24,426 bases of DNA from the IMG/VR virus record IMGVR_UViG_3300021961_000612, positions 1-24,426 of that record; one strand, 5' to 3'. Source of the stretch: a virus. A program made the position numbers and the translations under genes. Every line of letters starts with the position of its first letter. Positions within the stretch are counted from its first letter, which is position 1. Below the pieces are notes generated by a model. It was given only the letters and a program-made list of their open reading frames with translations. It searched no databases and was not told the DNA's origin. This document shows positions 8,814 through 22,782 of the stretch, piece after piece.

Positions 8814-8861
8814 GGCTACCTCGCGCTAGAAAATACCACAAATATAGGCAGATGTGTGAAC

Positions 8862-8878
8862 GTCTAGTTCGACTAGAC
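8862..8878. promoter_or_regulatory. Perfect short hairpin/dyad in the portal-protease gap
   Basis: GTCTAGT TCG ACTAGAC is a 7-bp perfect inverted repeat with a 3-base loop, in the 78-base gap between the portal stop (8892) and the protease GTG (8813). On the minus strand a T6 run precedes rather than follows it, so it is not a leftward terminator. It could be an mRNA processing or stability element or a protein-binding dyad. The half-site ACTAGAC also occurs in the subtilase/RNR divergent region at about 16429-16435. Confidence 0.5.
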
Positions 8879-8891
8879 AAAAAAGTATAGA

Positions 8892-11045
8892 TTAGATAAA
8901 CGAAAGAGTGCATCGGCAGTTAATTACCGATGTGCTGTCGTTTTCAAAATCTCCAGGGAAGCTAACGCTTTTACCGTTTACATCAAAAACTTCGTCAATA
9001 CCAACGGTTGAGTTAGCAACAACTTGATGCTCCTCCCTGCCGTGTTCCTCGTCTAAATGTACCCATGTTTTTTTGGTAAAGCCCAACTGCTTGGCTGCCC
9101 AAAGCAAACCAGCGTTAAAAGCCCCGCCGACTTCTGTCTTGACTATTAATTTCATTCTTTTAGTAAATGAAGCCGACATCCATTCATCGATTGAATTCAC
9201 AAACGATTGATGGGGCTTGCCTTTGTGGTCATCAATAATCTTTTGAATGTTTTTGGCTGTTGTTTGATTTACAACCAAAATATGATTTGCACGATTTTCA
9301 ATCAAATCCGTAATTTGTTTTTCGCCTAAATCGAGCTTGTCAATTGATTGCCCGGCAATTTCAATTGCGCCATCAAGGAATGTTGCAGAAATCCATGTTT
9401 TTGCATCCGCCTTCAATTGCGCATCCCAAATTTTGATATCCAAAACATCATCTACTGATACCGCTTCGCCCGATTCCCACTTCTCTTTCATTTTCTTAGA
9501 CGAGCTCTTTTCGTGAGTCACCCTTTGTTGGCGTTTAAAAAATGAACCAATCTGCAAAGTAACACTTGCTTCTAAACGCTCCAATTGTCTCGCTCGCCTA
9601 TTGATTCCAGAATCCTCAACCTTTACACTTTCGATTTCGTGTGAAAGCGGAGTTAGGGCTGGGGAATAAACGGCACGCGGGCTTGGGTCGTTGCTGTCTG
9701 TCGAAACTCGCCCTTGAGTCGGAGTGTTAACGCCATTTGGGGCGCTCGGTACAGTTGGGTCCTCTTGTCCATTTGGCCTCTGGCCCGGTCTTTGATTTGG
9801 GTTCAGCAATCCTGCACCGTCACCCGACATCATCACTGGTGAAAGATTTGTTGGGATTAGCAGCTCGTCAATACCAACGGCCTCACGACCTGTCAGGTTT
9901 CTATATTCATCAATACTGATAGCACCCTGCTTGAGTTCCTCTAAGTGGAACTTTGAGCGCTCTCTGTCGTCGCGACTAAGAATCGCCACAGAGGACAAGT
10001 CGAAGGCGAAGTATGTGCTTGGGTCTGTATCTAAAACATCAAACGCTCTTTCTAGGAGCGTCAGGTGCGGCCGCATAGTTTCTCGCCAAAAAACCTCAAG
10101 CTCAACATCAGCATTGGCAAATGTCCTGTTTGCAGCATTGCCCAAAACCGATTCTGGTACACCAAAAGCTAAAAGGATTTCTTCTTTATTATCTTTTCTA
10201 GCTTCCGAATATTGAGAATCCCTTTGATTTGTGGCTGTATCAATAAAATCAGCATCTTCGGCCGAAATAACAGTCATTCGTCCTGCACCGCCAATGTTTG
10301 AACCAGTTGAGCCCTTAAAGCGGCGAGCTATTTCTTCTGATTGCTCGTCCTCTAACTCGCCTTTGATAACAAGCAAACCACCTGGTCGCGCATCGTTAAT
10401 AATGAAGTTACGGTTAAAAACTCTTGCGTAGTAGTCGTACTCAATTGCTAAACCAGCCGATTCAAGTGGGGTCTGGCCTTTGTATGGGTCAATTGGATGT
10501 GGGACCCTAATCCAAATCATACTTTGTGGGTCAATAACTTTCTTTGGTTGATTTGGGTATTCAATTGAATAGCCCGAAACAAAAGTCTTCATGTCCGGAA
10601 TTGGAAAGACATATTGCGGCTGATGTAGATAAAGACCAGTTGTATCTCCAAGTCTGTTTCTCAAAATCTCTACATACGCGCCTTTGCGCGAAAGCAGTAT
10701 CTGAGAAGAAAGCATAAATCTAAAAGTAAAGGCATCTTGATTTTCATTTGCCTTACGATTCAGAACTTCAAGAATTGGATTGTCCCACTTGAATTCTCCA
10801 GTTCTCCAATCGCCAACACGCATTCCGACTGGCAGACTTGCAGAGTTTGACGCTATTGCGTAAACGGCTTTGTAAACCCAAACAACCCTGTCAAGAGCTT
10901 GACTAATGCCTCGCTCAACATCCCAGCCATCTTTGTATGGAGTATTGGGTCTGCTGTACCCAGAAGGCTGGTAGTAGTTTTTCTTTTCCGACACGTTGGA
11001 AAAGCCATTTTGGGTGTGGGTGGTAAAAGACCTAAGGAATGGCAT
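8892..11045 (-). CDS. Portal protein fused to a MuF-like minor capsid domain
   Basis: The protein has 717 residues, starting at ATG 11045. Residues about 45-400 are an HK97-type portal: VVWVYKAVYAIASNSASLP, a 'LLSRKGAYVEILRNRLG' strand pair, SMIWIRVPHPIDPYKGQTPL, ESAGLAIEYDYYARVFNRNF, NDARPGGLLVIKGELEDEQ, then EEILLAFGVPESVLG. Portals form the 12-mer ring at the packaging vertex. A Pro/Gly/Asn-rich linker (about 430-490) leads to a MuF-like end (about 560-717): RMKLIVKTEVGGAFNAGLLW, GFTKKTWVHLDEEHGREEHQ and the closing VINCRCTLSFI. MuF proteins are minor head proteins near the portal. Portal-MuF fusions are known in actinophages. It is the first large gene of the head operon after the terminator at 11327-11379. 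Confidence 0.9.
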   Translation of the reverse strand: MPFLRSFTTHTQNGFSNVSEKKNYYQPSGYSRPNTPYKDGWDVERGISQALDRVVWVYKAVYAIASNSASLPVGMRVGDWRTGEFKWDNPILEVLNRKANENQDAFTFRFMLSSQILLSRKGAYVEILRNRLGDTTGLYLHQPQYVFPIPDMKTFVSGYSIEYPNQPKKVIDPQSMIWIRVPHPIDPYKGQTPLESAGLAIEYDYYARVFNRNFIINDARPGGLLVIKGELEDEQSEEIARRFKGSTGSNIGGAGRMTVISAEDADFIDTATNQRDSQYSEARKDNKEEILLAFGVPESVLGNAANRTFANADVELEVFWRETMRPHLTLLERAFDVLDTDPSTYFAFDLSSVAILSRDDRERSKFHLEELKQGAISIDEYRNLTGREAVGIDELLIPTNLSPVMMSGDGAGLLNPNQRPGQRPNGQEDPTVPSAPNGVNTPTQGRVSTDSNDPSPRAVYSPALTPLSHEIESVKVEDSGINRRARQLERLEASVTLQIGSFFKRQQRVTHEKSSSKKMKEKWESGEAVSVDDVLDIKIWDAQLKADAKTWISATFLDGAIEIAGQSIDKLDLGEKQITDLIENRANHILVVNQTTAKNIQKIIDDHKGKPHQSFVNSIDEWMSASFTKRMKLIVKTEVGGAFNAGLLWAAKQLGFTKKTWVHLDEEHGREEHQVVANSTVGIDEVFDVNGKSVSFPGDFENDSTSVINCRCTLSFI

Positions 11046-11047
11046 GT

Positions 11048-11278
11048 TTAATTCCCGTTAGTAAAGCCGAGGAGCAAACCCGAACCTATTAAAGCGGCGC
11101 TAAGTACAAAAAATCCAACTTCCGGAGAAATTAAAAAAGCACCGACACACATTGAATAGCAGCCAGAAATAAAAGAAGCAAATGCAATCCGCTCTCTAAG
11201 GCTCAAAGATAAGGTTTTGCCCGCAAAAAAAATGCCTACTGCCGCCAAAAGTGTAATTATTCCATAAGCTAAAATCAT
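11048..11278 (-). CDS. Small membrane protein with three predicted transmembrane segments
   Basis: This 76-residue protein ends two bases before the portal ATG. Hydrophobic segments lie at about residues 3-20 (YGIITLLAAVGIFFAG), 32-49 (IAFASFISGCYSMCVGAF) and 55-72 (VGFFVLSAALIGSGLLLGF), separated by a short basic/acidic loop (SLRERI). It could be a holin-type or other membrane protein; the lysis block elsewhere already has a better holin candidate. It is the first gene after the SSB terminator, so it may begin the head transcript. No family recognised. Confidence 0.65.
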   Translation of the reverse strand: MILAYGIITLLAAVGIFFAGKTLSLSLRERIAFASFISGCYSMCVGAFLISPEVGFFVLSAALIGSGLLLGFTNGN

Positions 11279-11295
11279 TTAGAGCCCTTGACGTA

Positions 11296-11325
11296 ATCAG
11301 ACGACAAAAATTTCATAGTTGTAAA
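11296..11325 (-). promoter_or_regulatory. Candidate promoter for the head operon (weak)
   Basis: On the minus strand TTTACA (11325-11320, i.e. the right end) and TCTGAT (11301-11296) are 18 bases apart, 9 of 12 consensus positions. It sits just after the SSB terminator and just before the first head gene (ATG 11278), where a promoter is needed if the terminator is efficient. The match alone could be chance. Confidence 0.3.
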
Positions 11326-11326
11326 A

Positions 11327-11379
11327 CTATAGCAACAGGAAAGCCTTACCCTAAGATAAGGTCTTTCCCGTTGCTATAG
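11327..11379 (-). terminator. Rho-independent terminator after SSB
   Basis: A long hairpin: 10-bp outer stem CTATAGCAAC (11327-11336) with GTTGCTATAG (11370-11379), continuing inward after single mismatches with GGAAAG/CTTTCC and CCTTA/TAAGG. On the minus strand it is followed by TTTTAC. It starts about ten bases after the SSB stop and separates the DNA-metabolism operon from the head operon. Confidence 0.85.
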
Positions 11380-11389
11380 AAAAATTAGA

Positions 11390-11824
11390 TTAGAACGGTT
11401 CTTCTTCGAAAGCACCAACACTGGCAAGTGCCGTCTGGCGTGTTTGTCCAGACTTTCCAGCTGGTGTTGCACCTAGGACCTTAGTAATCCCAGATACTTG
11501 AGCTTTCCTGAGTGATGGACCGCAATCTTCAGCAATCAAAACAACTTTTGAATGCTTCTGACCATCTTTTTCCCAAGTCTGTTGCTCTAAGCGGCCAGTA
11601 ACAATGACCTTTGAGCCTTTCTTGAGGCTTGCTGCAATATTTTCTGCAAGCTCGCTCCATGCTGTTACATCAAAAAAGGATGTTTGTTCTTCCCAAGCAT
11701 CTTCTTTGTTCTTCCAGCTTCTGTTTACCGCAACACTCATATTGGTAAGAGTTGCTCCTGATTTCATTGTCTTCGTTTCTGGGTCTTTTGTTAAATTCCC
11801 AATTATCGTTACCTGTGAACTCAT
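11390..11824 (-). CDS. ssb: Single-stranded DNA-binding protein
   Basis: The protein has 144 residues with a canonical OB-fold start: QVTIIGNLTKDPETKTMKSG, NMSVAVNRSWKNKE, TSFFDVTAWSELAENIAASL, KKGSKVIVTGRLEQQTWEKD. The C-terminus ends EEEPF, an acidic tip comparable to the DDDIPF tail through which bacterial SSB recruits partner proteins. It coats single-stranded DNA during replication and recombination. ATG 11824 is preceded by GGAG at six bases. It is the last gene of the DNA-metabolism operon, directly before the terminator at 11327-11379. The region after the OB fold is shorter than in host SSBs, as usual in phages. Confidence 0.95.
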   Translation of the reverse strand: MSSQVTIIGNLTKDPETKTMKSGATLTNMSVAVNRSWKNKEDAWEEQTSFFDVTAWSELAENIAASLKKGSKVIVTGRLEQQTWEKDGQKHSKVVLIAEDCGPSLRKAQVSGITKVLGATPAGKSGQTRQTALASVGAFEEEPF

Positions 11825-11825
11825 T

Positions 11826-12383
11826 TTATTCTCCTGTATTCGTTGATGTTTCCTGTTTATTGTTTCTCATTTCAAGTAAGAACCAATCTTCAATCCACAT
11901 TATAGCAATAATTGCGTAACCGCAAATATCCAACCATGTGTCATCAATTGGCTCAAACAGCACTGGCCCACCATGTCGCTGGAGATTCTTTAAGCGCTCC
12001 AACTTATCATTTAGGCGAATTGTGATACCGGGGATACCAAAACGCTTAATATTCCCGTGACCATACATCTTTTGCTTACCGATTACCACTTCTCTTACAA
12101 TCTTGCTTGCTTTCTTTGGCGAAATATCTTTTTGATAGGCATAGCCACAAAGAGCAGCGATTGCAATATCAAAAAATTGTTCTTGTAAAATTTCATTATC
12201 TGCTTGGGAATCTGAAGAAAACACCGACTCAACAATGTCTTCAAACTCTTCAAAAATTACTTTTTGGCAGGCACTGCTATCCATCATTGATGCGAACTCG
12301 TGTGAGCCGGTCATGTCATTGATTGAACGCGTAACTATCTCAGCCGCTGTCTCCCAATCTTTTGGCTGGACCTTATTTTTCAT
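11826..12383 (-). CDS. MazG-like / nucleotide modification-associated domain 1 protein
   Basis: This 185-residue, mostly helical protein has an ATG at 12383 that overlaps the stop of the upstream nuclease gene (ATGA). Its C-terminal half carries KQKMYGHGNIKRFGIPGITI, then RLNDKLERLKNLQ and DDTWLDICGYAIIAIMW. This is the pattern of the domain formerly DUF1599 (nucleotide modification-associated domain 1), an all-alpha fold related to MazG/dUTPase-like NTP pyrophosphohydrolases; the Glu/Asp residues of RLNDK and EPIDDTWLD would bind magnesium. In phages such proteins are tied to nucleotide pool control or modified-base synthesis. No base-modifying partner is visible in this window, so pool control alongside the ribonucleotide reductase is the simpler view. 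The substrate is unknown. Confidence 0.8.
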   Translation of the reverse strand: MKNKVQPKDWETAAEIVTRSINDMTGSHEFASMMDSSACQKVIFEEFEDIVESVFSSDSQADNEILQEQFFDIAIAALCGYAYQKDISPKKASKIVREVVIGKQKMYGHGNIKRFGIPGITIRLNDKLERLKNLQRHGGPVLFEPIDDTWLDICGYAIIAIMWIEDWFLLEMRNNKQETSTNTGE

Positions 12384-13153
12384 AATGCACCTTTGTATGT
12401 CATGGGAGCAAGCATAGCTGTTTTAGAGTGCCTGGCCTCCCATTCAAAAACTCGACGAAGAGAAAGAAACATTTCAAAAATATCATCGTCAATTCTTAGT
12501 GGTTGGAAGGACCAATTATCTGGCCTAATCCAAAGAGCGGCGGCGCCATCAATATGTGGAATAGCAATTTCCTTATCGCCATCAAACATTACATCAGCCC
12601 TTGCGTATGCCGCTAGCTGTAAAGCAACTTTGGGGCTGATACCTGAGCGGGTGGTTTTGAAATCCAAAATCATTGTTTTCTTATTGATTCGCGCGATTGC
12701 ATCAAATGAACCAGCATACAAATGAGTTAATGAAAAGACTGACTTTTCGACATGCAACCATTCGGGTTCAAAGCGATTACAGAAAATGTCAAATCTTTCA
12801 ATAAAAGGAGCGAGGTCTGCATCGAAAGGACGAGTCGGGTCAATGATTCTGTTTTCAAAAGCTTCGTGGACTCGTGTGCCGATATCTGCCGCTTTATCCA
12901 ACTCTCTTGATGCAGCATTTTTTAGCCATTCAATTGCTTTGTTGGAATTGCCTGATGCCGCTAATTCATTAATGTAATCCAGATTGGCCATAGCGGCTTG
13001 TGCTGTCATCTTGCTATTCCATGCCCTCAAGAATGGCGATGGGAGCATGTCTAAAACTGAAGTCACCGATGGCGCTGTTACGTTTTTTAAATTTGGGTGC
13101 TCATAATAACGATGGTTGTTGACTTGATAAGTCTTAATCTTCGGATTGGTCAT
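12380..13153 (-). CDS. RecB/Cas4-like PD-(D/E)XK exonuclease
   Basis: The protein has 257 residues. It has the ordered motifs of the RecB-family nuclease domain seen in phage exonucleases: an N-terminal SVTSVLDMLPSPFLRAWNSK segment, DIGTRVHEAFE (catalytic-domain entry, His and Glu), SFDAIARINKKTMILDFKTT (the D...DxK core), and LQLAAYARAD (the 'Q..aY' motif). It would resect or process DNA ends in phage replication, recombination or host DNA degradation. It lacks a visible four-Cys iron-sulfur site typical of true Cas4. It is followed with a 4-base overlap by the MazG-like gene and then SSB, a usual phage DNA-metabolism grouping. Confidence 0.88.
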   Translation of the reverse strand: MTNPKIKTYQVNNHRYYEHPNLKNVTAPSVTSVLDMLPSPFLRAWNSKMTAQAAMANLDYINELAASGNSNKAIEWLKNAASRELDKAADIGTRVHEAFENRIIDPTRPFDADLAPFIERFDIFCNRFEPEWLHVEKSVFSLTHLYAGSFDAIARINKKTMILDFKTTRSGISPKVALQLAAYARADVMFDGDKEIAIPHIDGAAALWIRPDNWSFQPLRIDDDIFEMFLSLRRVFEWEARHSKTAMLAPMTYKGAL

Positions 13154-13177
13154 TTTGTTCTTTCTTTGTTTTTGTAA

Positions 13178-13402
13178 TTAAGCCTGTTGATTTAGTTTGT
13201 TGTATTCCGACCAGTCGGTTTGCAATTTATAAGAACATTCAACAACCTCTGGTGGAGCATCTCTTTCGTACAACTCTAAGCCAAAACCAAGAACAATAAA
13301 CCTTGGCGTTGGATATTTCATCGTTAAAGTTTTTTTATTGTAACTACCGCCAACTAATTTTATTTCAGCTTTGTCTATGGTTGTTGGCTTGCGCTGGGCC
13401 AT
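13178..13402 (-). CDS. Small protein of unknown function
   Basis: This 74-residue protein starts MAQRKPTTIDKAEIKLVGGS at ATG 13402, one base after the stop of the ribbon-helix-helix gene. It has a basic N-terminus, a beta-like middle (TPRFIVLGFGLELYERD) and an end rich in aromatic and charged residues (CSYKLQTDWSEYNKLNQQA). No family recognised. Its tight spacing in the DNA-metabolism operon supports it being real. Confidence 0.6.
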   Translation of the reverse strand: MAQRKPTTIDKAEIKLVGGSYNKKTLTMKYPTPRFIVLGFGLELYERDAPPEVVECSYKLQTDWSEYNKLNQQA

Positions 13403-13403
13403 T

Positions 13404-13568
13404 CTATTTAACGTTAATTACTTGACTTCTTATGAATTCGCCAACGCTCACGCGATTCTTTTTTGCTATTTGTTTAATTTGAGCGACTTGTTTTTTTGTA
13501 AAGCGTACAGTTATTCTTTCGTCCCCGTTTGCTTTACCTGTCTTATCCACTTTCCTGGGCTGAGCCAT
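13404..13568 (-). CDS. Ribbon-helix-helix (Arc/MetJ-type) DNA-binding protein
   Basis: This 54-residue frame has its ATG at 13568 overlapping the TAA of the upstream gene (TAATGG); it ends TAG at 13406-13404, one base before the next ATG. The sequence has the ribbon-helix-helix layout: strand ERITVRFT, helix A KKQVAQIKQIAKKN, turn RVS, helix B VGEFIRSQVI. The strand residues of a dimer would enter the DNA major groove. The N-terminus (MAQPRKVDKTGKANGD) is basic and probably flexible. It lies in the middle of the DNA-metabolism operon and could autoregulate it. No toxin-like partner is obvious next to it. Confidence 0.8.
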   Translation of the reverse strand: MAQPRKVDKTGKANGDERITVRFTKKQVAQIKQIAKKNRVSVGEFIRSQVINVK

Positions 13569-13897
13569 TATTTTGATTCCTTTAATTTATTTAATACATT
13601 TTCAATGCTTTCAACCGATTCGTTGTAATCATCAACAAAAGTTTTATCTAAGACAATAGATTCTGTTTCTGGGTCAACTGAAAGCATTTCTGAAAGCATT
13701 TTTAATTTATTAAGCGGGTTGGTGATTTCCGTAAGAAAAGAATTTATGACCTTTTCGTAGTGGTCCAACTGTTCGCGTTGCGGGTTTGCTGACTCTTGAG
13801 CGAACATAACCGGTACATCATTCCCACCAAGAGCTCCTGCGTAAATGACGAACGATTCGTCTGGGTTGCCAATGCTAAATCCTGAAATTTTTGACAT
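13568..13897 (-). CDS. Conserved-looking helical protein of unknown function
   Basis: The protein has 109 residues. ATG 13897 has AAAGGAG six bases upstream, one of the best ribosome sites in the operon. The first 35 residues look globular (FSIGNPDESFVIYAGALGG). From about residue 40 to the end it is helical with heptad-like leucines (DHYEKVINSFLTEITNPLNK, then SVESIENVLNKLKESK), so a coiled coil is possible. No family recognised. It overlaps the ribbon-helix-helix gene by one base and may be co-translated with it. Confidence 0.65.
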   Translation of the reverse strand: MSKISGFSIGNPDESFVIYAGALGGNDVPVMFAQESANPQREQLDHYEKVINSFLTEITNPLNKLKMLSEMLSVDPETESIVLDKTFVDDYNESVESIENVLNKLKESK

Positions 13898-13945
13898 GTA
13901 ATCTCCTTTGCTTTATCTTATCAGACCTATATGAGTTGCGTTGAT

Positions 13946-14407
13946 TTATGAATCATAATCTTTGTTGTAAATCATGTCCATGACCTCACTGGGCTCAAGC
14001 AAAAATCCTTTAGCGGGGTTATCGCTATTCTCGGCGAAAACAACTTTTGCGCTTTCAGTAAATCTATCTTTGTTTTTTCTTAAATAAGATTTAAGTCTTT
14101 TGACTGACACTATTACGAATGATTCGTTTAGCGAATAGACGTATAGCCACCAGTCAGCTGTGGTTACATTAATCCCGCTATTTTTCCACTTTACAGAACC
14201 ATCTAAATTCCTTGCTCTTTGAGGATTTTGCTGGGTTTCAACAACCATTCTTCCGTTCCTGTATCTATCGGTCTTGACCTCGGCGGAACCCTGAATTACC
14301 TGTTCGTAAAATGACTTTATAAATTGCTCGCCATCTTCTCCGTATTTCAAATCGTTTTTGAAATTAAACGAATTCGATGGGATGTCAAATCTATTCTCGT
14401 AAACCAA
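13946..14407 (-). CDS. Predicted PD-(D/E)XK-like endonuclease
   Basis: The protein has 153 residues with a TTG start at 14407. GAGGT five to six bases upstream overlaps the subtilase stop, implying coupling to that gene. The layout NDLKYGEDGEQFIKSFYEQV (helix with Glu), AEVKTDRYRNGRMVVETQQN (strand-turn-strand with E-x-K and a later Glu), WKNSGINVTTADWWLYVYS, SFVIVSVKRLKSYL resembles small phage PD-(D/E)XK nucleases related to resolvase or repair enzymes, with 'VKTD...vE' as the presumed metal site. Proteins of this look are common in tailed phages but are usually annotated hypothetical. Nuclease activity is inference. Confidence 0.6.
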   Translation of the reverse strand: MVYENRFDIPSNSFNFKNDLKYGEDGEQFIKSFYEQVIQGSAEVKTDRYRNGRMVVETQQNPQRARNLDGSVKWKNSGINVTTADWWLYVYSLNESFVIVSVKRLKSYLRKNKDRFTESAKVVFAENSDNPAKGFLLEPSEVMDMIYNKDYDS

Positions 14408-14410
14408 TAG

Positions 14411-16360
14411 CTACCTCTTCATCGGCTTTATTGGAACATATTTGTACCAAACTAATTTGCCTTTAATTCTCTTACAGACGAAATTGACTTTATTTGTTCT
14501 TTTACGCAAACCAATCTTCTTGCAAGACCGCAATGGTTTGGTCGGTTTAACTGGTGAGGAAGAAACGCCCAGGGGTGTAGAAAGTATTGGAACCGAGGGC
14601 GCAACTGTAATCAGCGGTTGGATAGTTGTGGTTGTGGTGGGCATAGCAACTGTTGTGGTCGTTGTAGTAGTTGTTGGCTCACTACTCCCGCCACCTCCGC
14701 CGCCGCCACCGCCACCACCACCGCCACCGCCGCCGGTGCTAGTTCCGCCACCAATTGGTTTTGGGATTGTCGTAGTACTGGTGGTTGTGGTCGTAGTAGG
14801 GATGGTTGTAGTGCTTGTGGTTGTAGTCGTTGTCGCAGGAATCGTGGTTGTGGTCGCCGGAACAGTAGTTGTAGTTGTACTCGTCGTACTGGTCGTCGTT
14901 GGGGCCAAAGTGGTTGTTGTAGAAGTCGTCGTTGGGGCAATAGTTGTCGTTGGGGCAACTGTCGTTGTGGTGACTTCTGGGACCGTAGTCGTAGTTGTTG
15001 GAGCGATGGTTGTCGTTGGTGCAACAGTGGTGGTGGTTGTCGTTTCAGAATTTTGTGTTAGCGGGATTGTTGTGGTGGTGGATGTAGTAGAAGTAGAAGT
15101 AGAAGTAGTAGTCGTAGTGGTCGTGGTAGTCGTTGTAGTTGACGATGCTGGACCAGACGAACCATTAAAAAGCTGTATGTTTGGCGAACCTGTTTCTACC
15201 GCATTTATAACTCCAGATGTCGCCATGTCAAGTATTGACTGAGCAATAACAGAATGGCTTGCCGAAGGATTTGTTTCTAGTAATAAAGCAGCAACACCAG
15301 CAACATGTGGCGACGCCATTGAAGTCCCACTAGAACTTCTAACTGCATTACTTGCTCCGACCCACGCTGATTCAATTGATGAGCCAGGAGCAAAAATATC
15401 TAGGCATGAACCAAAATTAGAAAATCCAGACTTTTCATTTGCGCTGGTTATTGAGCCAACCGTAAGCACAAGCGGCTCGGAGGCTGGAGAGTAATTACAA
15501 GCGTTAGCGTTTGCATTACCAGCAGCAACAACAACTGTTATGCCATCTTCTATTGCGCTTCTAACCGCATCGTTAAGACTTGTTGAGGATGTAACGACCA
15601 AACTCAAATTCATTACGGCTGGTGTCCCCGAAGAATGATTTGCTATCACCCAGTTGATTCCACTGATAACACCCGAGACACTTCCAGACCCTCTGCAATT
15701 CAGGACTCTTACTGGAGTAATCGTCACATCTTTGGCTACTCCATATTTTGTCCCACCCAAAGTTGCAGACACATGACTTCCGTGCCCATTGCAGTCTTCG
15801 GTCCCGTATGTATCAGCAACAATGTTGTAGCCATCATTGATTCTGCCCGAGTATTCTTCGTGCCCTGAATTTATTCCAGTGTCAACCACGTATGCAGTAA
15901 CACCATTACCCGTTGTGTCGTAGGAATAAATCCCATCTCGGGTCAAACTGCGTTGGTCTATTCTGTCAAGATTCCACAATGTGAAAGCTCCAGAACTATC
16001 AAGAAGAGATTGTTCGCCAGCCAAAAATACTTCTTCGTCTTCTTCTACATATTTGACCTGCTCGTCTTCTTGCAATTTTTCAACATCCGAAGCTGTGAGC
16101 TCTGCCACAAATCCATTGGTGGCCAAATTGAATACTCGTAAAACGTTCATGCCGGTTTTTTGTAAATCTAAAACAAACTCTTGGACAAGCACGTCATCTT
16201 CAAGAGTGACGATGTAAGTCTTAACCTCTGACAAATCTGTGGATAACTTTGCTGAAAAATTTGAACTTTGTCCCAGGTCGTATGCTAAAGTTTTTTCACC
16301 TACAGAAGGCAGGGCGAGGGCAAAAACCAAAAAAATAAACTTAATAGGTTTTGTATTCAT
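14411..16360 (-). CDS. Secreted S8 subtilase (proteinase-K-like) with Thr-rich stalk, poly-Gly and basic C-terminus
   Basis: The protein has 649 residues. It has a signal peptide (KPIKFIFLVFALALP, cut near residue 26), an I9 inhibitor-type propeptide (about 46-112, KTYIVTLEDD...FVAELTASDVEKL), then the catalytic domain (about 125-400) with D160 (AYVVDTGIN), H193 (DCNGHGSHVSATLGG), oxyanion N282 (AAGNANANACNYSPA) and S347 (SGTSMASPHVAG). All four are intact, so an active secreted protease is expected. Residues about 405-555 are almost wholly Thr with Ser, Val, Ala, Pro, followed by some 16 consecutive Gly, more Thr, and a basic end (SCKKIGLRKRT, VCKRIKGKLVWYKY) like the short Cys/Lys C-terminal modules of actinobacterial surface proteins. 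ATG 16360 has GGAG upstream and a TATAAT-type promoter. This looks like a host gene captured by the phage; it is the first gene of the operon leading into DNA-metabolism genes. Confidence 0.93.
   Translation of the reverse strand: MNTKPIKFIFLVFALALPSVGEKTLAYDLGQSSNFSAKLSTDLSEVKTYIVTLEDDVLVQEFVLDLQKTGMNVLRVFNLATNGFVAELTASDVEKLQEDEQVKYVEEDEEVFLAGEQSLLDSSGAFTLWNLDRIDQRSLTRDGIYSYDTTGNGVTAYVVDTGINSGHEEYSGRINDGYNIVADTYGTEDCNGHGSHVSATLGGTKYGVAKDVTITPVRVLNCRGSGSVSGVISGINWVIANHSSGTPAVMNLSLVVTSSTSLNDAVRSAIEDGITVVVAAGNANANACNYSPASEPLVLTVGSITSANEKSGFSNFGSCLDIFAPGSSIESAWVGASNAVRSSSGTSMASPHVAGVAALLLETNPSASHSVIAQSILDMATSGVINAVETGSPNIQLFNGSSGPASSTTTTTTTTTTTTSTSTSTTSTTTTIPLTQNSETTTTTTVAPTTTIAPTTTTTVPEVTTTTVAPTTTIAPTTTSTTTTLAPTTTSTTSTTTTTVPATTTTIPATTTTTTSTTTIPTTTTTTSTTTIPKPIGGGTSTGGGGGGGGGGGGGGGGSSEPTTTTTTTTVAMPTTTTTIQPLITVAPSVPILSTPLGVSSSPVKPTKPLRSCKKIGLRKRTNKVNFVCKRIKGKLVWYKYVPIKPMKR
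14680..15145. repeat. Low-complexity tract encoding Thr-rich stalk and poly-Gly of the subtilase
   Basis: About 450 bases of near-repetitive sequence: on the plus strand gt-rich triplets (gtcgtagtggttgt-type) complementing ACN Thr codons, and a ccgccgccaccgcc run at about 14690-14735 complementing Gly codons. Repeated peptide units are VAPTTT, IAPTTT and TTSTTTT. Codons within the Thr run vary (ACA, ACC, ACT, ACG), so the protein repeat is maintained although the DNA is not a simple microsatellite. It produces long but meaningless antisense frames. Confidence 0.85.
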
Positions 16361-16385
16361 TGAGTTCTCCTTATGGGGATAATCA

Positions 16386-16413
16386 ATTATAGGGTCTCAG
16401 CCCCAAAAACCAA
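16386..16413 (-). promoter_or_regulatory. Promoter for the subtilase operon
   Basis: On the minus strand a perfect TATAAT (16391-16386) lies 16 bases after TTGGTT (16413-16408), about 25 bases before the subtilase ATG, with GGAG in between. The -35 match is poor (3 of 6) but actinobacterial promoters often rely on the -10 alone. The 136-base region up to 16496 is shared with the divergent ribonucleotide reductase gene, for which I see only AAAGG before the ATG and no clear promoter. Confidence 0.5.
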
Positions 16414-16496
16414 CATTCGATTACGTCAACTAGACAAGTGACTCGAACTAAATTTGAGAAACTTTTAAAACCAACAAAACGCCAGAAAGGCTGAAT

Positions 16497-18422
16497 ATGA
16501 CACTATTAGACCAATCCTTCGTCGATTCTTACGCAAACAAGAAGGCCCCTTGGGGTTTTAATGGCCTGGGCGAAATTGTGTTCTTGCGCACCTACAGCCG
16601 TAAAAAAGAAAACAACGAAAATGAAACTTGGGTCGAAACCCTCCAGCGAGTAATCAATGGCGCGCACGAAATAGGTGTTGAGTACACAAAAGAAGAAGTT
16701 GAAAAACTTTTTGACCACTGCTTTAACCTTCGATGCTCGTTCTCGGGTAGGGCAATGTGGCAACTCGGGACACCGCTTGTCAAGAAGTTTGGAGCGTCAT
16801 CTCTCAACAACTGCTACTTCACCAACATTGAAAAAATTGAAGACTTTGAACTGCTTTTTGAATACTTAATGCTTGGTGGTGGAGTTGGGTTTTCGGTTGA
16901 GCGCTCTAAAATCCATGACTTGCCCAAGGTTCGAAGTGGCGTAGTTGTTACTCATGAAAAAACCAATGATGCCGATTTAATTGTTGCCGACTCCCGACAG
17001 GGCTGGAACAGACTACTTCACGCAGTACTTAAGTCTTACTTTTATACCGGCAAATCATTTAGTTACTCAACTGTTTTAGTCCGTGAGTATGGTGCAGCTT
17101 TGAAAACTTTTGGTGGTACAGCATCCGGACCGGGAGCGTTAATTGATGGCATCAAAGACATTTGCGAAGTTATGGATAATCGGGTCGGCAAAAAACTTCG
17201 CTCGGTGGATGTATTGGATATTTGCAACATCATAGGACGAATTGTTGTTTCTGGTTCTTCGCGAAGAAGTGCTCAAATTGCAATGGGCGACCCAGATGAC
17301 GTTCTCTTCTTGCGAGCAAAGAACTGGTCTTCAGGTAATGTCCCTGCATGGCGAGCCAATTCAAATAACAGTATTTACGCTGACTCGTTTGAAGAAATCC
17401 AACAAGAGCTTTGGAGAGGTTATGACGGCTCTGGCGAACCATACGGTCTATTGAACCGCAGACTCGCTAGGAAAGTGGGACGCCTCGGCGAAACCAAAGT
17501 TGATAACTCGATTGAGGGCTTTAACCCATGCGCTGAAATTGCTTTGGCCGATGGTGAGTCCTGCAATTTGTCAACAATCTTTTTGCCGAACGTGGAGTCA
17601 CTGGAGCAAATGAAGGAAATCTCATACTTGCTTTATAAGACTCAAAAGCAAATCACTCGCATGAATTATTCATACCAAAAGACAACAGACATAGTCAGCA
17701 AAAATTCCAGAATCGGTCAATCCATAACTGGAATCCTGCAGAGCTCGCCAGAACAAATTGAGTGGCTCGATGATGCCTATAAGTACCTAGAAAATCTTGA
17801 TACTGAATATTCAAAAGCTAAAAACTGGCCGAAGTCAGTAAGACTTACAACTGTTCAACCATCAGGGACTCTTTCACTACTGCCTGGAGTCACCCCTGGG
17901 GTACACCCAGCTTTTGCCCCTTACTATGTGCGACGTGTTCGGTTTGGTTCTTCAGACCCGCTAGTTGAAGCGTGTAGGAAGCGTGGCTATAAAACTCAGT
18001 GGGATATTGGTCTTGACGGACGAGAAGACCACACGAGATTAGTGGTCGACTTCCCATGTAAATCGCCAGAAGGTTCGACTCTCGCCAAGGACATGACCGC
18101 CGTACAGCAACTTGAATGGGTCAAGAAGATGCAAACTGTCTGGGCAGATAATGCCGTATCGGTGACCGTGTACTACCGCAAGGAAGAGCTTGACTCAATC
18201 AAGGAATGGCTGTCGAAGAATTATGACAAGAGCGTCAAGTCAGTTTCTTTCTTGTTGCACGCGGAGCACAACTTCGTCTTGCCCCCATACGAGGAAATAA
18301 CCAAGGAAGAATACGAAAAGATGGCTTCAAAAATTGACCAGTCCATCCCGTTGATTCAAAAATCTTTTGAGGGTGAAATCCTTATGGATGATTGCGCTAC
18401 TGGGGCTTGTCCAATTAAATAA
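16497..18422 (+). CDS. nrdJ: Adenosylcobalamin-dependent class II ribonucleoside-triphosphate reductase, monomeric type
   Basis: The protein has 641 residues. It reduces ribonucleotides to deoxyribonucleotides for phage DNA synthesis, using coenzyme B12 to form the thiyl radical. Visible key residues: C106 (SLNNCYFTN) and C356 (DGESCNLS), the redox pair; C345 within FNPCAEIAL, with N343 and E347 forming the radical site; and a C-terminal CATGACPIK (C633, C638), the mobile pair that is re-reduced by thioredoxin. Other family motifs are LMLGGGVGFSVERS and PSGTLSLLPGVTPGVHPAFA. The order matches the Lactobacillus leichmannii-type monomeric enzyme; it is somewhat shorter. AAAGG precedes ATG 16497. 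It is on the opposite strand to its neighbours, between the lysis and DNA-metabolism blocks, suggesting insertion as a separate unit. The host presumably provides B12. Confidence 0.95.
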   Translation: MTLLDQSFVDSYANKKAPWGFNGLGEIVFLRTYSRKKENNENETWVETLQRVINGAHEIGVEYTKEEVEKLFDHCFNLRCSFSGRAMWQLGTPLVKKFGASSLNNCYFTNIEKIEDFELLFEYLMLGGGVGFSVERSKIHDLPKVRSGVVVTHEKTNDADLIVADSRQGWNRLLHAVLKSYFYTGKSFSYSTVLVREYGAALKTFGGTASGPGALIDGIKDICEVMDNRVGKKLRSVDVLDICNIIGRIVVSGSSRRSAQIAMGDPDDVLFLRAKNWSSGNVPAWRANSNNSIYADSFEEIQQELWRGYDGSGEPYGLLNRRLARKVGRLGETKVDNSIEGFNPCAEIALADGESCNLSTIFLPNVESLEQMKEISYLLYKTQKQITRMNYSYQKTTDIVSKNSRIGQSITGILQSSPEQIEWLDDAYKYLENLDTEYSKAKNWPKSVRLTTVQPSGTLSLLPGVTPGVHPAFAPYYVRRVRFGSSDPLVEACRKRGYKTQWDIGLDGREDHTRLVVDFPCKSPEGSTLAKDMTAVQQLEWVKKMQTVWADNAVSVTVYYRKEELDSIKEWLSKNYDKSVKSVSFLLHAEHNFVLPPYEEITKEEYEKMASKIDQSIPLIQKSFEGEILMDDCATGACPIK

Positions 18423-18437
18423 TGTTATACTTGAGCA

Positions 18438-18590
18438 ATGCTCAAGGAACAACGACACGATAGCGAAGATGACATCCATGAGGTTTTGCGCTGTCTGCGA
18501 AACAGGGTTGTTGAATTAGAGAGCGCTCTTGATGCCATGCGAGGCGAGCTTCGCGTAGCCCAGCAAGAACGATGGGCTAGAGATAACTAA
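18438..18590 (+). CDS. Small coiled-coil protein downstream of the ribonucleotide reductase
   Basis: This 50-residue frame begins 15 bases after the reductase stop on the same strand (MLKEQRHDSEDDIHEVLRCL) and ends with TAA at 18588-18590, five bases before the end of the convergent ferredoxin gene. The middle (LRNRVVELESALDAMRGELR) has heptad spacing of Leu/Val and strong charge alternation, so a short coiled coil is likely. No recognised family and no strong ribosome site. It is probably co-transcribed with the reductase. Confidence 0.6.
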   Translation: MLKEQRHDSEDDIHEVLRCLRNRVVELESALDAMRGELRVAQQERWARDN

Positions 18591-18595
18591 ATACT

Positions 18596-18844
18596 TTAGT
18601 CGACCTCAATAAAAATACATTCGCCTGGGCAGTCCTCAGCAGCTTCAACGACCGCGTCAGTCAGACTGTCTGGAAATGAAGCCAGACCAGCCGCGCCCTC
18701 TGGGTTGCCCCTCAGTTTTGAAAATACTTTCCCATTCTCTTGGACGTAAGCCAGACCATCCTCGAGCATGATGAAAACATCCGGGGCTACCTCTGCGCAC
18801 AGACCATCTCCAGTGCATAAATCTTGGTCAATCCAAACTTTCAT
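18596..18844 (-). CDS. Ferredoxin, 3Fe-4S type
   Basis: This 82-residue protein matches small actinobacterial 3Fe-4S ferredoxins in length and layout: KVWIDQDLCTGDGLCAEVAPDVF (C10, C16), then LAYVQENGK, and AAEDCPGECIFIE (C72 with Pro after it, plus an extra C76). Position 13, where a fourth cluster Cys would lie in 4Fe-4S proteins, is Asp, favouring 3Fe-4S. Such ferredoxins usually pass electrons to cytochrome P450s or other oxidoreductases; none is visible here. Its ATG overlaps the stop of the holin-like gene (ATGA), so it is translated as the last gene of the lysis operon, converging on the ribonucleotide reductase unit. A role in feeding reductant to a phage or host enzyme is inference. 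Confidence 0.9.
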   Translation of the reverse strand: MKVWIDQDLCTGDGLCAEVAPDVFIMLEDGLAYVQENGKVFSKLRGNPEGAAGLASFPDSLTDAVVEAAEDCPGECIFIEVD

Positions 18845-19122
18845 TGCTGGCTATCCGGTATACCATCGCCATCTTTGTCTTCGGGGTTTCGACCAGTCGA
18901 AATCATTAGGCCAGCCAGCGTGCCGGTAATAAAGGTAGCAACGCTTGAGAGAACTCCAAAAAACATTTTGTCGTTTTCTGCTTGAGCGCCAATTGGTTGA
19001 GCTACAAATACGAGCGCCCAAAGAACGCCAATTGTTGTGATTGCCAGCACAAAACCCAATACGCAACCAATAACAAATTTAAGTCGGGCGTCAAGTTCTG
19101 CTGGTGTCATTCGTTGTTTCAT
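18841..19122 (-). CDS. Holin-like membrane protein with acidic calcium-binding-like tail
   Basis: The protein has 93 residues from ATG 19122 (MKQRMTPAELDARLKF), which overlaps the lipoprotein stop (ATGA). The frame extends upstream inside the lipoprotein gene but that part has no protein-like pattern. Two hydrophobic segments (FVIGCVLGFVLAITTIGVLW, and FFGVLSSVATFITGTLAGLM) are joined by a short loop; the C-terminus is RNPEDKDGDGIPDSQQ, a DxDGDGxxD calcium-loop-like motif. Size, two membrane spans, charged tail and position in the lysin operon fit a holin or related lysis membrane protein. Timing of lysis by pore formation is the inferred role. Confidence 0.65.
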   Translation of the reverse strand: MKQRMTPAELDARLKFVIGCVLGFVLAITTIGVLWALVFVAQPIGAQAENDKMFFGVLSSVATFITGTLAGLMISTGRNPEDKDGDGIPDSQQ

Positions 19123-19388
19123 GGCGCCACTGTCTCCTCTGTTAGAATTGTTTCTATTGTGACTTCTACGGTTGTTTCTGTTGGGTCCCAACCAAGCAAG
19201 GTTTTTGTGCAGCTTCCATCTACTTCGCATATTGGCGGCTCACATTCTTTAGCTCCCCAATTTTCTGGGTCTTGACATGAATACCTATAGCTACCGTCGT
19301 AACCACAGGACGTTAGTAGGAAAATCAAAATTGCTAACCAAATAATCATTAAAAAATAAAAAAATTTGCTTCTGGCAAAATAAATCAT
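19119..19388 (-). CDS. Small Cys-rich lipoprotein in the lysis block
   Basis: The protein has 89 residues. A hydrophobic leader (MIIWLAILIFLLTSC from Met14, or the longer start at 19388) ends in a lipobox LLTSC with Cys28 as the lipidation site. The mature part begins CGYDGSYRYSCQDPENWGAK and contains further Cys pairs (KECEPPICEVDGSC). This CGYDGxYRYxCQDPxNW... pattern is familiar to me from uncharacterised small lipoproteins in aquatic phages. The tail is Thr/Glu-rich. It overlaps both neighbours by four bases (ATGA at both ends). An outer-face membrane role in lysis or superinfection exclusion is possible; function is unknown. Confidence 0.75.
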   Translation of the reverse strand: MIYFARSKFFYFLMIIWLAILIFLLTSCGYDGSYRYSCQDPENWGAKECEPPICEVDGSCTKTLLGWDPTETTVEVTIETILTEETVAP

Positions 19389-19582
19389 TTAGCACCAGCT
19401 CCCTCTAACTCAATTCCTTCAATCTTGTCCAAGTAAGCCTGAACCTCTGCACGACTCATACCCTCATTGAAAAGAGCCCATTCAAAAGCTTCGCGACCTT
19501 CTCCGGTTGCGCCAAGAACAATAGAGGCATATAGCGTTTCCGCTATATCGCGCCAATTGTTTTTTTCTGTTTTTTCAGACAT
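19385..19582 (-). CDS. Small acidic protein of the lysis block, function unknown
   Basis: The protein has 65 residues: MSEKTEKNNWRDIAETLYAS followed by a helical region (EAFEWALFNEGMSRAEVQAY, LDKIEGIE). No membrane span and no recognised family. The ATG at 19582 has an ideal AGGAG at seven bases, but that site lies in a 9-bp hairpin (19590-19615), suggesting controlled translation. Its stop overlaps the start of the lipoprotein gene (ATGA), so control here could extend through lipoprotein, holin-like protein and ferredoxin by coupling. Confidence 0.7.
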   Translation of the reverse strand: MSEKTEKNNWRDIAETLYASIVLGATGEGREAFEWALFNEGMSRAEVQAYLDKIEGIELEGAGAK

Positions 19583-19589
19583 GGGTTTT

Positions 19590-19615
19590 CTCCTATGGCA
19601 ATTATCCCATAGGAG
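19590..19615 (-). promoter_or_regulatory. Hairpin sequestering a ribosome-binding site in the lysis operon
   Basis: A 9-bp perfect stem, CTCCTATGG (minus-strand reading 19615-19607) with CCATAGGAG (19598-19590), has an 8-base loop. The last five bases of the 3' arm, AGGAG, are the Shine-Dalgarno for ATG 19582. On the minus strand a T8 run comes before the stem, not after it, so it is not a terminator for the lysin transcript. Confidence 0.65.
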
Positions 19616-19648
19616 TAAAAAAAATTGTCTTAAGCTAAAAACTAAAGC

Positions 19649-20380
19649 TTATTTATCCCAGACGTTCCAGTTCCCTAGACCGCTTGCTGAGTTGTCCATG
19701 ATGTACTTAGCAACCTTTAAGTTGCAGTGGACATCAAACAGGCCTTCAAGACCCGTCCCACAAACATTCTTGGTGACCGTCTTCCAACAAGAATTTATTT
19801 GTATAAGTCCACGGTCAATCGAGCCATCTTTATTCAGGGTCCAAATAACATTGCCTTTTGAGTCAAATTTTGCATTGACTGCTGCTGGGTTACATCGAGA
19901 CTCACGGTAGGCAATATAAGAAAAGACCTCTACAGGTTCAAGACCATACTGAGCGAAAAGTGGTTCAAATTGAGGACAGCGGTGTGTTGGGTCTTCGGAA
20001 ATGTTGTAACGGCGCTTATTGCCGTCCTTGATTGGGTTTGGCAGGGCTGGGAGAAAGGCTGTTTCTAGCCCTGCTCGCTCCAAGGCGCTCAGGTGAGCTG
20101 CCCTAGTTGCTGGGCCATAATGACCGTCCGCAAGGACTCCCAGAATGGTCTGAAGCTGACTCACTCGTTCGCTTCGTTCGTTGAATAGAAAGGATGCCGT
20201 CAGAAGTGAATTCTTGTCCTCTTTGGCCTTGCTCGGAGACTCGATTACCTTAAGGGTGTAGGAGCTGGCTGGTCGGGGTGTTTGCCTGTCTTCCCTGGAT
20301 TCAGCTAGTGAATTTCCGCCGATTCCAATTGCTGCTGTGAACCATAAACCTATAGCTACTGCTAATTCCTTGGTAAACAA
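19649..20380 (-). CDS. Peptidoglycan-degrading lytic transglycosylase (endolysin or exolysin)
   Basis: The protein has 243 residues with a TTG start at 20380, five bases after AGGAG. It has an N-terminal hydrophobic signal-like segment (ELAVAIGLWFTAAIGIGGNS, residues 5-24). A peptidoglycan-binding-like repeat follows at about 72-102 (ERVSQLQTILGVLADGHYGPATRAAH; 'lQ..Lg...DG.yGp.T..A'). The catalytic part at about 130-243 has YIAYRESRCNPAAVN with E160 as the expected general acid, DRGLIQINSCW, and NLKVAKYIMD...GNWNVW, the SLT-type order. It cleaves the glycan strand of host peptidoglycan. With an export signal it may be released independently of the holin. Five Cys in the catalytic domain suggest disulfides outside the cytoplasm. 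Confidence 0.85.
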   Translation of the reverse strand: MFTKELAVAIGLWFTAAIGIGGNSLAESREDRQTPRPASSYTLKVIESPSKAKEDKNSLLTASFLFNERSERVSQLQTILGVLADGHYGPATRAAHLSALERAGLETAFLPALPNPIKDGNKRRYNISEDPTHRCPQFEPLFAQYGLEPVEVFSYIAYRESRCNPAAVNAKFDSKGNVIWTLNKDGSIDRGLIQINSCWKTVTKNVCGTGLEGLFDVHCNLKVAKYIMDNSASGLGNWNVWDK

Positions 20381-20394
20381 ACTCTCTCCTATCG

Positions 20395-20865
20395 TTAGCC
20401 GCCTGGAGGTAAAGACTTAGTAAGACCTAGTTTTTCGGCCTCGGCGGGATGGTCATGTTTCCATCGGTGATGCGCTCTGCATAGCACCTGACAGTTATTA
20501 GGGTCTAAGTAATTGCCTCCTCGACCCCGAGGGATAATTTCATCAATGTCCAATATGCTTGAACACGGTATAGACCCTAGCAGGAATTTCGCTTGACACA
20601 ACCCCATGTCGCGTTTCATTACTATACGCCTTACTTTTTCACGCTCTTTATCTTTTTCTTTAGTTTTAGCGCTTTTAAACTTGAGTGGAGTCGACTTAAC
20701 TTTCTTTTGTTGAGTAACTGAAGGTTTGTCAAGACATTTTCTTAATCTTGCGCGCGAATCACGCTGACCTTCAACTAAATAAAGGTTTCCAAAGCTCCCA
20801 CATTTTTCGTATTTACAATTTTCTTTTCTGCCTTCACAATTTCCTTTATGGGAAAATGTTTTCAT
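20395..20865 (-). CDS. HNH endonuclease next to terminase
   Basis: The protein has 156 residues; ATG 20865 overlaps the terminase stop (ATGA). The N-terminal part carries several Cys (GNCEGRKENCKYEKCGSFGN, then LRKCLDK), likely a small zinc module, then a strongly basic Lys-rich linker (about 55-78). The HNH core at about 85-150 reads GLCQAKF, LDIDEIIPRGRGGNYLDPNN and CQVLCRAHHRWKHDHPAEAE. The Asn and the C-terminal His-His are present, but the first motif reads IDEII where family members often have a His. HNH proteins beside terminase genes assist cos or headful cleavage in several phages (for example HK97 gp74), the likely role. Confidence 0.85.
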   Translation of the reverse strand: MKTFSHKGNCEGRKENCKYEKCGSFGNLYLVEGQRDSRARLRKCLDKPSVTQQKKVKSTPLKFKSAKTKEKDKEREKVRRIVMKRDMGLCQAKFLLGSIPCSSILDIDEIIPRGRGGNYLDPNNCQVLCRAHHRWKHDHPAEAEKLGLTKSLPPGG

Positions 20866-22193
20866 ACGATGATTCTTACGTTCTTCCCTTTACGGGAAAC
20901 AAGTGCTTGAATTGCTCCGGAGATTGCATCAACTTGGTCGTCATGGGCACCATAAGGAAAGACTTCACATTCATCCAATAAAGCAGAATTCCAATTACCC
21001 CTAGACAGCATTACGTTGCCAGCCTCTGAAGCTGCAGAGAAAACACCCGCCCTGTCCTTCTTGGCAGTGTTGGACTTTACCCCTTTGAAATTAAAACCAG
21101 GGACAACGGTTCTGGCGTAATGGTCAATTACGTTAACTCCAGAGGAGCCTGGTTCTTGTTCCATAATTATCTTGACCGACAAGCCATCTTCCTGGGCTGT
21201 TTGAGATATTAGTTTCTCAACTTCGTACGGAGTCCCGCGCATTCTTCTGATATCTAAAATGAAATATCTTCCATCTTTGGTTCCTACCAATGCGCCGACT
21301 GTCCAGTCTGGGTCGGTGCCATGCTTTTTTGCAGTGGCCGCCAAGTCCCAATAACGGACTTTTTCTATGCCTTCCGGGATTACTCCGGTTATTGCAAACC
21401 AGTCCCGCTTAAACATGCCGCCTTCTTCTCTGATTTCCCAGTTGCCGTCAAGTAGGCGAGCTTTTTCAATTGCGTCAAGCTCGTCAAGACTCTTGATATA
21501 GGTATCTGCATCGAGCGATGGGTTGTCTGAAATTTTTGCTGGCATGAATTTTCTATCTTCGCTTCTGTTAAGCAAAAATCTTTCATAGACCCAGTTGTTC
21601 CCTGGACCTCCAGGGTTGGTGGCAGCCCTCACTCGAAGAGGGATATCCGCCGAGGACATACCGCATCTTGGGCATCTCAGTAAATTGTCAGATGGGGCTG
21701 GTTTTCTAACTCGGGAGAAACCTACATATCTAAAAACTCTGTCGGTTTTCCATTGTGTTAATTCATCTACCCCAACAAAGTGATAAGCGAACGATTGGAA
21801 TTTGTATCTGTCCTCGTCTCTTTCACAGTGGTCAAAAGAAAGTGTCGCGCCAGACGGGAATGTCCACCGCTTATTGGTGCCGACATATTGAGCGTCGGTG
21901 TTAGCGAGCCACGCATTACATCTATCAATGAACCCGTCAGGACCTGAGAGTTGTGGGTATGTTTGACGCAAAAGCAAAGCTGAATACCCGGGAACACAAA
22001 TGTATTGAAGCGCCGCCATCAGCAGAGCATCGCTTTTACCTCCACCAGCCGCGCCGCCATACAAAGCTTCGCGCGTTGTTGACCATGTCAAAAATGCCGC
22101 CTGCTTCGGGTGCATGTTGTGGGGCAATTGAAAGCCGCATGGGACTTTGTAATTTGTTAGCGAAGCTAATTGTTCACGCGTTGTCTTGCTCAT
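20862..22193 (-). CDS. terL: Terminase large subunit (ATPase-nuclease)
   Basis: The protein has 443 residues and is the DNA-packaging motor. N-terminal ATPase: EALYGGAAGGGKSDALL (Walker A at about 46-54), YHFVGVDELTQW (Walker B Asp142 with catalytic Glu143) and AATNPGGPGNNW (coupling motif). A CPRCG pair at about 173-176 is an insert. C-terminal RNase H-like nuclease: RYWDLAAT (D282), KIIMEQEPGSSG (Glu about 344) and HDDQVDAISGAI (Asp about 418 and 421). The nuclease cuts concatemers to unit length and the ATPase drives translocation through the portal. It overlaps the small subunit gene by 20 bases and the HNH gene by four. The portal gene is about 10 kb away, which is unusual. Confidence 0.96.
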   Translation of the reverse strand: MSKTTREQLASLTNYKVPCGFQLPHNMHPKQAAFLTWSTTREALYGGAAGGGKSDALLMAALQYICVPGYSALLLRQTYPQLSGPDGFIDRCNAWLANTDAQYVGTNKRWTFPSGATLSFDHCERDEDRYKFQSFAYHFVGVDELTQWKTDRVFRYVGFSRVRKPAPSDNLLRCPRCGMSSADIPLRVRAATNPGGPGNNWVYERFLLNRSEDRKFMPAKISDNPSLDADTYIKSLDELDAIEKARLLDGNWEIREEGGMFKRDWFAITGVIPEGIEKVRYWDLAATAKKHGTDPDWTVGALVGTKDGRYFILDIRRMRGTPYEVEKLISQTAQEDGLSVKIIMEQEPGSSGVNVIDHYARTVVPGFNFKGVKSNTAKKDRAGVFSAASEAGNVMLSRGNWNSALLDECEVFPYGAHDDQVDAISGAIQALVSRKGKNVRIIV

Positions 22194-22782
22194 CTACTTC
22201 TTCCACGACTGCTGCTTCGATAATTTCATCTTCATCCCAAGCATTCAAAACATTGGATGGTAAATCCCCGGAATCAACAAGCGCCTGAAGGATTGCTCTC
22301 TTCCTTGTCTCGTCTTCTTCCAGCGTCGCCGCTTTTTCAATCTGCATGCCGTCATTGGTATTGCTTAATTCAAGCTTGACGGTGTTGTTGTCTCCCCATT
22401 CTTGAGGCCAGCGCTTAGCAAGGAATCTTTCGGCTGCTTTCCAGTCACCACCTCTTGCCTCTTTGAACCAAGAAAGAACAAGGCCGGCTTGTGCTTCGCT
22501 TTCCGCACGACTTATCTCTTGTGCAAATTTTAAATACGGCTCTTCTTCTGGTGATGGGTCTTGACCATCTTGTATTGCTTTTTGTTCAGTCAGCCCTCTG
22601 TTAATCCACCTAGATACAGTCATCCTGGTTATACCAACTGCCTCTGCCGCGCGGGCATATGTCATGCCGCCACGCATCAAGTCCACGATTGAGGGTCCAA
22701 GTGTTTCGCACAGGGACACGGACTCACCGTTGACTTTTCTTGGTTGGCGAGCACCAATGGGGAATTTATTATCGGAGGTCAT
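22174..22782 (-). CDS. terS: Terminase small subunit
   Basis: The protein has 202 residues with an N-terminal HTH (GMTYARAAEAVGITRMTVSR then WINRGL) that would bind the packaging site. A helical middle (FAQEISRAESEAQAGLVLSW) fits oligomerisation, followed by EARGGDWKAAERFLAKRWPQEWG, a motif frequent in small subunits of this type. The C-terminus is very acidic (DEDEIIEAAVVEEVDEQDNA), where it contacts the large subunit. ATG 22782 overlaps the upstream stop (ATGA). It is directly followed by terL with a 20-base overlap. Confidence 0.9.
   Translation of the reverse strand: MTSDNKFPIGARQPRKVNGESVSLCETLGPSIVDLMRGGMTYARAAEAVGITRMTVSRWINRGLTEQKAIQDGQDPSPEEEPYLKFAQEISRAESEAQAGLVLSWFKEARGGDWKAAERFLAKRWPQEWGDNNTVKLELSNTNDGMQIEKAATLEEDETRKRAILQALVDSGDLPSNVLNAWDEDEIIEAAVVEEVDEQDNA

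Follow-up and report, generated by a model that had tools for sequence, protein, structure and literature searches.

What might a bacteriophage gain from a complete subtilase equipped with an export signal and a long stalk? The window (the whole stretch of 24,426 nt that was analysed) encodes a portal protein, a capsid protein, a prohead protease, a terminase and a single-strand DNA-binding protein (SSB), all recognised by Pfam or PHROG profile matches, and is phage DNA. It ends within a whiB-like gene, which is complete in a separate IMG/VR contig (L001) that runs beyond the window end and is 100% identical to the window from 6880 to 24426 (17.5 kb), with both junctions of the protease gene inside. 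WhiB is used as a marker for actinobacterial phages (PMC6802176, PMC10202952) and its presence therefore points to an actinobacterial host. The protease gene and its surroundings comprise the following features:

11390-11824, minus strand: SSB, in the strand block of the protease (Pfam/PHROG)
12380-13153, minus strand: exonuclease (phrog_298), in the strand block of the protease (PHROG match)
13946-14407, minus strand: phrog_13596 protein (g13946), in the same operon as the protease (PHROG match)
14411-16360, minus strand: stalked subtilase gene, 649 aa (Pfam, PHROG, solved-structure relatives, structure model)
16361-16496, no strand: divergent intergenic region of 136 bp, near-identical in the 83%-identical relative L002
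16497-18422, plus strand: class II (adenosylcobalamin) ribonucleotide reductase (RNR), neighbour of the protease and marker of the accessory island
18596-18844, minus strand: ferredoxin (Fer4_15), recurring near the subtilase in relatives
18841-19119, minus strand: small two-TM protein (phrog_25359), 71-91% identity in relatives
19119-19388, minus strand: small lipoprotein with lipobox LLTSC (read from sequence), conserved in relatives
19649-20380, minus strand: SLT/lysozyme-like protein, N-terminus hydrophobic, bounding the accessory island on the right
24248-24426, plus strand: start of the whiB-like gene (complete copy in L001), actinobacterial-host marker

The subtilase ORF reads from 16360 to 14411 on the minus strand and starts with ATG. 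Upstream of this ATG, the intergenic region holds an SD sequence (AAGGAG, 16367-16372) and a TATAAT at 16386-16391; a consensus promoter scan upstream of the protease did not report the TATAAT, and a -35 element was not clear. Only 3 nt separate the stop codon from the phrog_13596 gene, after which the block continues to the exonuclease and SSB genes, as expected from the original prediction that the protease heads an operon leading into DNA metabolism. This position is peculiar to the window phage and its near twin L002, since in other relatives the protease lies on the other side of the RNR and in several follows envelope-type genes.

The encoded protein is divided as follows:

16283-16360, minus strand: signal peptide, residues 1 to about 26 (read from sequence)
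16022-16225, minus strand: I9 inhibitory/chaperone propeptide, about residues 46-113 (Pfam PF05922 and structure model)
15161-15976, minus strand: proteinase-K-type S8 catalytic domain, residues 129-400 (Pfam, solved-structure relatives, structure model)
14561-15160, minus strand: Thr-rich stalk, residues 401-600 (sequence composition)
14687-14734, minus strand: Gly16 run in the stalk, residues 543-558 (sequence composition)
14414-14524, minus strand: basic two-Cys C-terminal module C613-x15-C629-x6-L-x-W (motif comparison)

A complete secreted subtilase with signal peptide, propeptide, triad, stalk and a C-terminus rich in Cys and Lys had been predicted, and all of these parts were found, with the numbering of D160, H193, N282 and S347 exact. 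The signal peptide contains the hydrophobic stretch FIFLVFALALPSVG, with possible cleavage after TLA-YD. Inhibitor_I9 (PF05922) matched residues 67-113 (1e-8; 36.2 bits, cut-off 21.2), ahead of the catalytic domain, and the model of the propeptide reached block-mean pLDDT values of 93-96 across most of its length. Peptidase_S8 (PF00082) matched residues 151-383 (5.5e-36; 124.8 bits, cut-off 21.8), and the PHROG profile phrog_3677 'protease' assigned the protein to this family with 3.7e-65. The D160/H193/S347 triad and the oxyanion residue N282 are all intact in S8 motifs, which identifies the protein as an S8 subtilase. Its top solved relatives are proteinase-K-type enzymes (4.8e-86), placing it in the proteinase-K-type S8A group, and cysteines 190/222 and 288/319, predicted to form disulfides, align with the conserved cysteines of that group. 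Of the 405 residues in the AlphaFold model (mean pLDDT 86), 301 score above 90. Target TM-scores of 0.94-0.95 were obtained for its catalytic domain against keratinase, Serratia proteinase K and aqualysin I. A type VII secretion mycosin (TIGR03921) was considered and rejected, with 110.4 bits against the curated cut-off of 278.75 and no visible C-terminal TM helix.

With proteinase-K-type S8A enzymes (aqualysin I, Meiothermus keratinase, Vibrio and Serratia proteinases) the window protease has the catalytic motifs, the Cys pattern and the I9 propeptide in common, at about 50% identity in the catalytic domain. Unlike these enzymes it is phage-encoded and carries a Thr-rich stalk with Gly16 and a basic C-x15-C-x6-LxW C-terminus. 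Export, self-processing and proteolysis are proposed because the parts fit established S8/I9 biology, and judged from its sequence the protein is very probably an exported, active protease.

Residues 403-600 of the stalk consist of 49.5% Thr with only four charged residues, and the expected poly-Gly run lies inside the stalk. The C-terminus (residues 601-649) holds 17 K/R and no D/E. Neither Pfam nor a fold search with the C-terminal module gave a significant match; structure prediction proposed three short strands with moderate confidence. A search of actinobacterial genomes with the module, which the original prediction had recommended, revealed that 40 of the 151 genomes in one family, nearly all of them small, carry C-x15-C-x6-LxW copies. 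The bacterial copies inspected sit directly behind a hydrophobic export signal, often with Thr-rich linkers next, and one of them, CKVKGRKRTVNGVTFVCRNAKGKLVWRK, is closely similar to CKKIGLRKRTNKVNFVCKRIKGKLVWYK of the window phage. These exported actinobacterial proteins thus have the same Cys/LxW spacing, Thr linkers and export as the window protease; in them, however, the module is N-terminal and belongs to other enzymes, whereas in phage proteins it is C-terminal, here at the end of a subtilase. Finding this module next to Thr linkers in proteins that actinobacteria export lends moderate independent support to retention in the envelope, first suggested from stalk and basic C-terminus. From stalk, charge and module, we consider it probable that the protease is retained on the cell surface. 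By analogy, the module might instead serve folding, stability or substrate binding: in the halolysin SptA, the extension behind the subtilisin-like catalytic domain likewise contains two disulfide-forming cysteines and helps stability and substrate binding (PMC3158780). The SptA extension is a modelled beta-jelly-roll-like domain, the window module a short three-strand prediction. In a related phage, another exported protein (247 aa; L227, 865-1608) also ends with the C-x15-C-x6-LxW module.

The same locus was found in related phage contigs. In L002 (83% DNA identity) the protease is at the same place beside the RNR, with the intergenic region almost unchanged, and the two protease genes differ with a dN/dS of 0.076 (catalytic domain 0.048). 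Homologues are present in more than ten related phage contigs, and in the phage relatives the catalytic motifs are intact, with dN/dS of 0.02-0.07. Such strong purifying selection on the parts of the protein argues that they did not come together by accident. Where the terminase is at least 82% identical, all contigs that reach from the SLT gene across to g13946 hold an island of 5.2-9.6 kb in the interval between these two genes, with a stalked subtilase as well as a class II RNR in it. At terminase identities of 71-81%, the 14 contigs spanning this interval have 0.6-1.3 kb there and neither RNR nor subtilase; one phage of this group carries a subtilase elsewhere, near a ferredoxin. A general link between RNR and protease was rejected beyond this phage clade (9 of 80 RNR loci).

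On the opposite side of the RNR, the relatives' protease lacks an I9 domain. In several relatives the genes directly ahead of it encode an NAD-dependent epimerase, a methyltransferase-like protein and a 236-aa protein that matched nothing in Pfam, a set suggestive of glycan modification; other islands contain a carbamoyltransferase or a PhyH-type dioxygenase. The glycan-type genes are absent from the window phage. In L067, of another lineage, the phage subtilase gene is directly preceded by one (7219-9843) for an exported protein of 874 aa, in which very long poly-Thr stalks are combined with a hydrophobic segment at the C-terminus. Such neighbours are consistent with envelope remodelling, of which they are no proof, and the epimerase and methyltransferase could instead act in DNA or virion modification. 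No tyrosine integrase was found among 14 related records, which may be fragments, and a prophage-only role is therefore not favoured; two of the 14 have a resolvase-type domain.

The term 'host-like' in the original prediction could be taken to mean recent capture from a host. Among bacterial proteins, actinobacterial exoproteases come closest, with about 50% identity. In a tree under a site-heterogeneous model, 12 actinophage subtilases formed one clade against 38 bacterial sequences (support 98/91), and a second mixture-model tree gave the same clade against 57 others (56 bacterial, one other viral; support 98/88), a set that also held, for each phage lineage, its best bacterial matches. With the phage subtilases apart from the bacterial ones in both trees, recent host capture is not favoured. 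Because the two phage lineages were separated in a quick LG+G4 tree, their single origin is likely rather than certain. The stalked actinophage subtilases are likely, to judge from their sequences, an old phage gene family with different lineages on either side of the RNR. A Thr-rich linker and a C-x(15)-C-x(6)-L-x-W ending are common to both lineages; the L066 and L067 subtilases, within the clade, keep the linker and have a different C-terminus. 'Acinetobacter phage MD-2021a' (CAKLQH020000012.1) was rejected as the closest isolate because its subtilase is flanked by bacterial genes; the record is probably mislabelled host DNA. One bacterial genome (G461, contig 244, 9064-15307) holds five tandem subtilase genes with 42-48% identity to the phage catalytic domain.

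The explanation that we prefer, at a probability of roughly 0.5, is a Sec-exported, self-activating, envelope-tethered protease that trims the cell surface. During infection the host Sec system would export the protease; the I9 propeptide would fold the catalytic domain and then be cut off, and outside the cell the two disulfides would form. Held on the exterior of the infected actinobacterium by its basic two-Cys module and its Thr-rich stalk, which is probably glycosylated, the enzyme would trim surface proteins there. Removal of receptors and other surface proteins would let competing phages fail to adsorb and keep progeny from sticking to debris. We infer the substrate, the timing and the benefit; that surface trimming for superinfection exclusion or virion release is the benefit has about even odds. 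The intact active site, the propeptide, the confident fold and dN/dS values of 0.02-0.08 argue for a tethered protease, as does the predicted architecture of signal peptide, S8 domain, Thr linker and C/C/LxW ending common to two actinophage subtilase lineages. The epimerase and methyltransferase genes ahead of the protease agree with envelope modification. Several points tell against the explanation: the proteases encoded across the RNR lack the I9 propeptide, the window phage has no epimerase and methyltransferase genes of this kind, and the module is C-terminal in phages but N-terminal in the bacterial proteins. In addition, a review of superinfection exclusion (PMC11436027) does not mention 'protease' or 'proteoly'.

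Among possible benefits we would rank surface trimming first, nutrient supply and help in lysis next and a virion function last. As an auxiliary metabolic gene, the protease would digest dissolved or surface proteins, and an oligotrophic host would take up the peptides for phage production. Proteinase-K-type enzymes are broad exoproteases, the genomes bearing the module are small and the RNR is another precursor-supply gene on the phage, but freed peptides would diffuse and feed neighbours (a tether lowers this loss, not to zero), genes for transporters or peptidases were not seen next to the protease, and the RNR does not track the protease outside the phage clade; we regard nutrient supply as unlikely. 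Slightly less likely still is an enzyme that breaks down a proteinaceous surface layer to complete lysis and virion release. The relatives' protease shares one strand block with the SLT lysozyme, the lipoprotein and the two-TM protein; yet no recognised endolysin/holin pair adjoins it, DNA-metabolism genes lie beside it in the window, and related phages without the island manage without it.

A virion-associated protease aiding entry, as suspected for subtilases among baseplate genes, is very improbable. The subtilase gene of cyanophage S-H38 does sit between baseplate genes, but that enzyme has no signal peptide, and a signal peptide with a propeptide is unsuited to cytoplasmic virion assembly. 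No tail or virion gene adjoins the window protease, whose neighbours are the RNR, phrog_13596, exonuclease and SSB genes, and this counts for the surface-protease explanation. That the locus is an assembly chimera, or a phage contig fused with a piece of a host gene, as the closeness to actinobacterial exoproteases might suggest, is refuted by L001, which is identical across both junctions, by the same protease/RNR junction in the diverged L002 and by the homologues in related phages, and the protease is phage-encoded, as the original prediction held.

A complete exoprotease had been called unusual in a phage. S8 domains themselves are known in tailed phages, from phrog_3677 and from isolate subtilases of Agrobacterium phage Atu_ph07, Sinorhizobium phage Phosso, Bacillus phage Goe3 and cyanophage S-H38, with 29-41% identity to the window protease over parts of the catalytic domain, and the stalked type is common in related actinophages; to this extent the description was too strong. 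It stands for export, as none of these four isolate subtilases has an N-terminal signal peptide, unlike the window protease. The literature yielded no description of a phage subtilase that is exported and stalked, and the protease terms searched for do not occur in two papers on freshwater actinophages (PMC6802176, PMC10202952). Given the lack of such a description and of signal peptides in the four isolate subtilases, the exported stalked architecture is counted as new, S8 subtilases in phages being already known.

Exclusion of other phages and surface change are usually credited to lipoproteins, membrane proteins and glycan enzymes. If the tethered-protease explanation is true, an exported, stalked, phage-evolved protease adds surface proteolysis to these means, in the setting of whiB-carrying phages and their actinobacterial hosts. 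A wider reading, which we put forward tentatively and hold to be somewhat doubtful, is a phage gene family for proteolytic remodelling of the infected-cell surface in aquatic actinobacteria: phage-evolved exoproteases displayed on stalks, with an attachment module common to exported proteins of the host group, for superinfection exclusion and progeny release. A further outcome is a two-Cys envelope module that has no name as yet and whose binding target is open to direct test.

Some further genes of the window deserve mention. Several divergent actinophage lineages (L061, L064, L073, L185, L196) also have a Fer4_15 ferredoxin close to their subtilase, and its identity reaches 86% beyond the near twins of the window phage. 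The two-TM protein is conserved about as well as the terminase, and the LLTSC lipoprotein is a candidate exclusion factor in its own right. The prohead protease ORF (6540-8813, 757 aa) shows an Hva1_TUDOR domain match beside Peptidase_S78.
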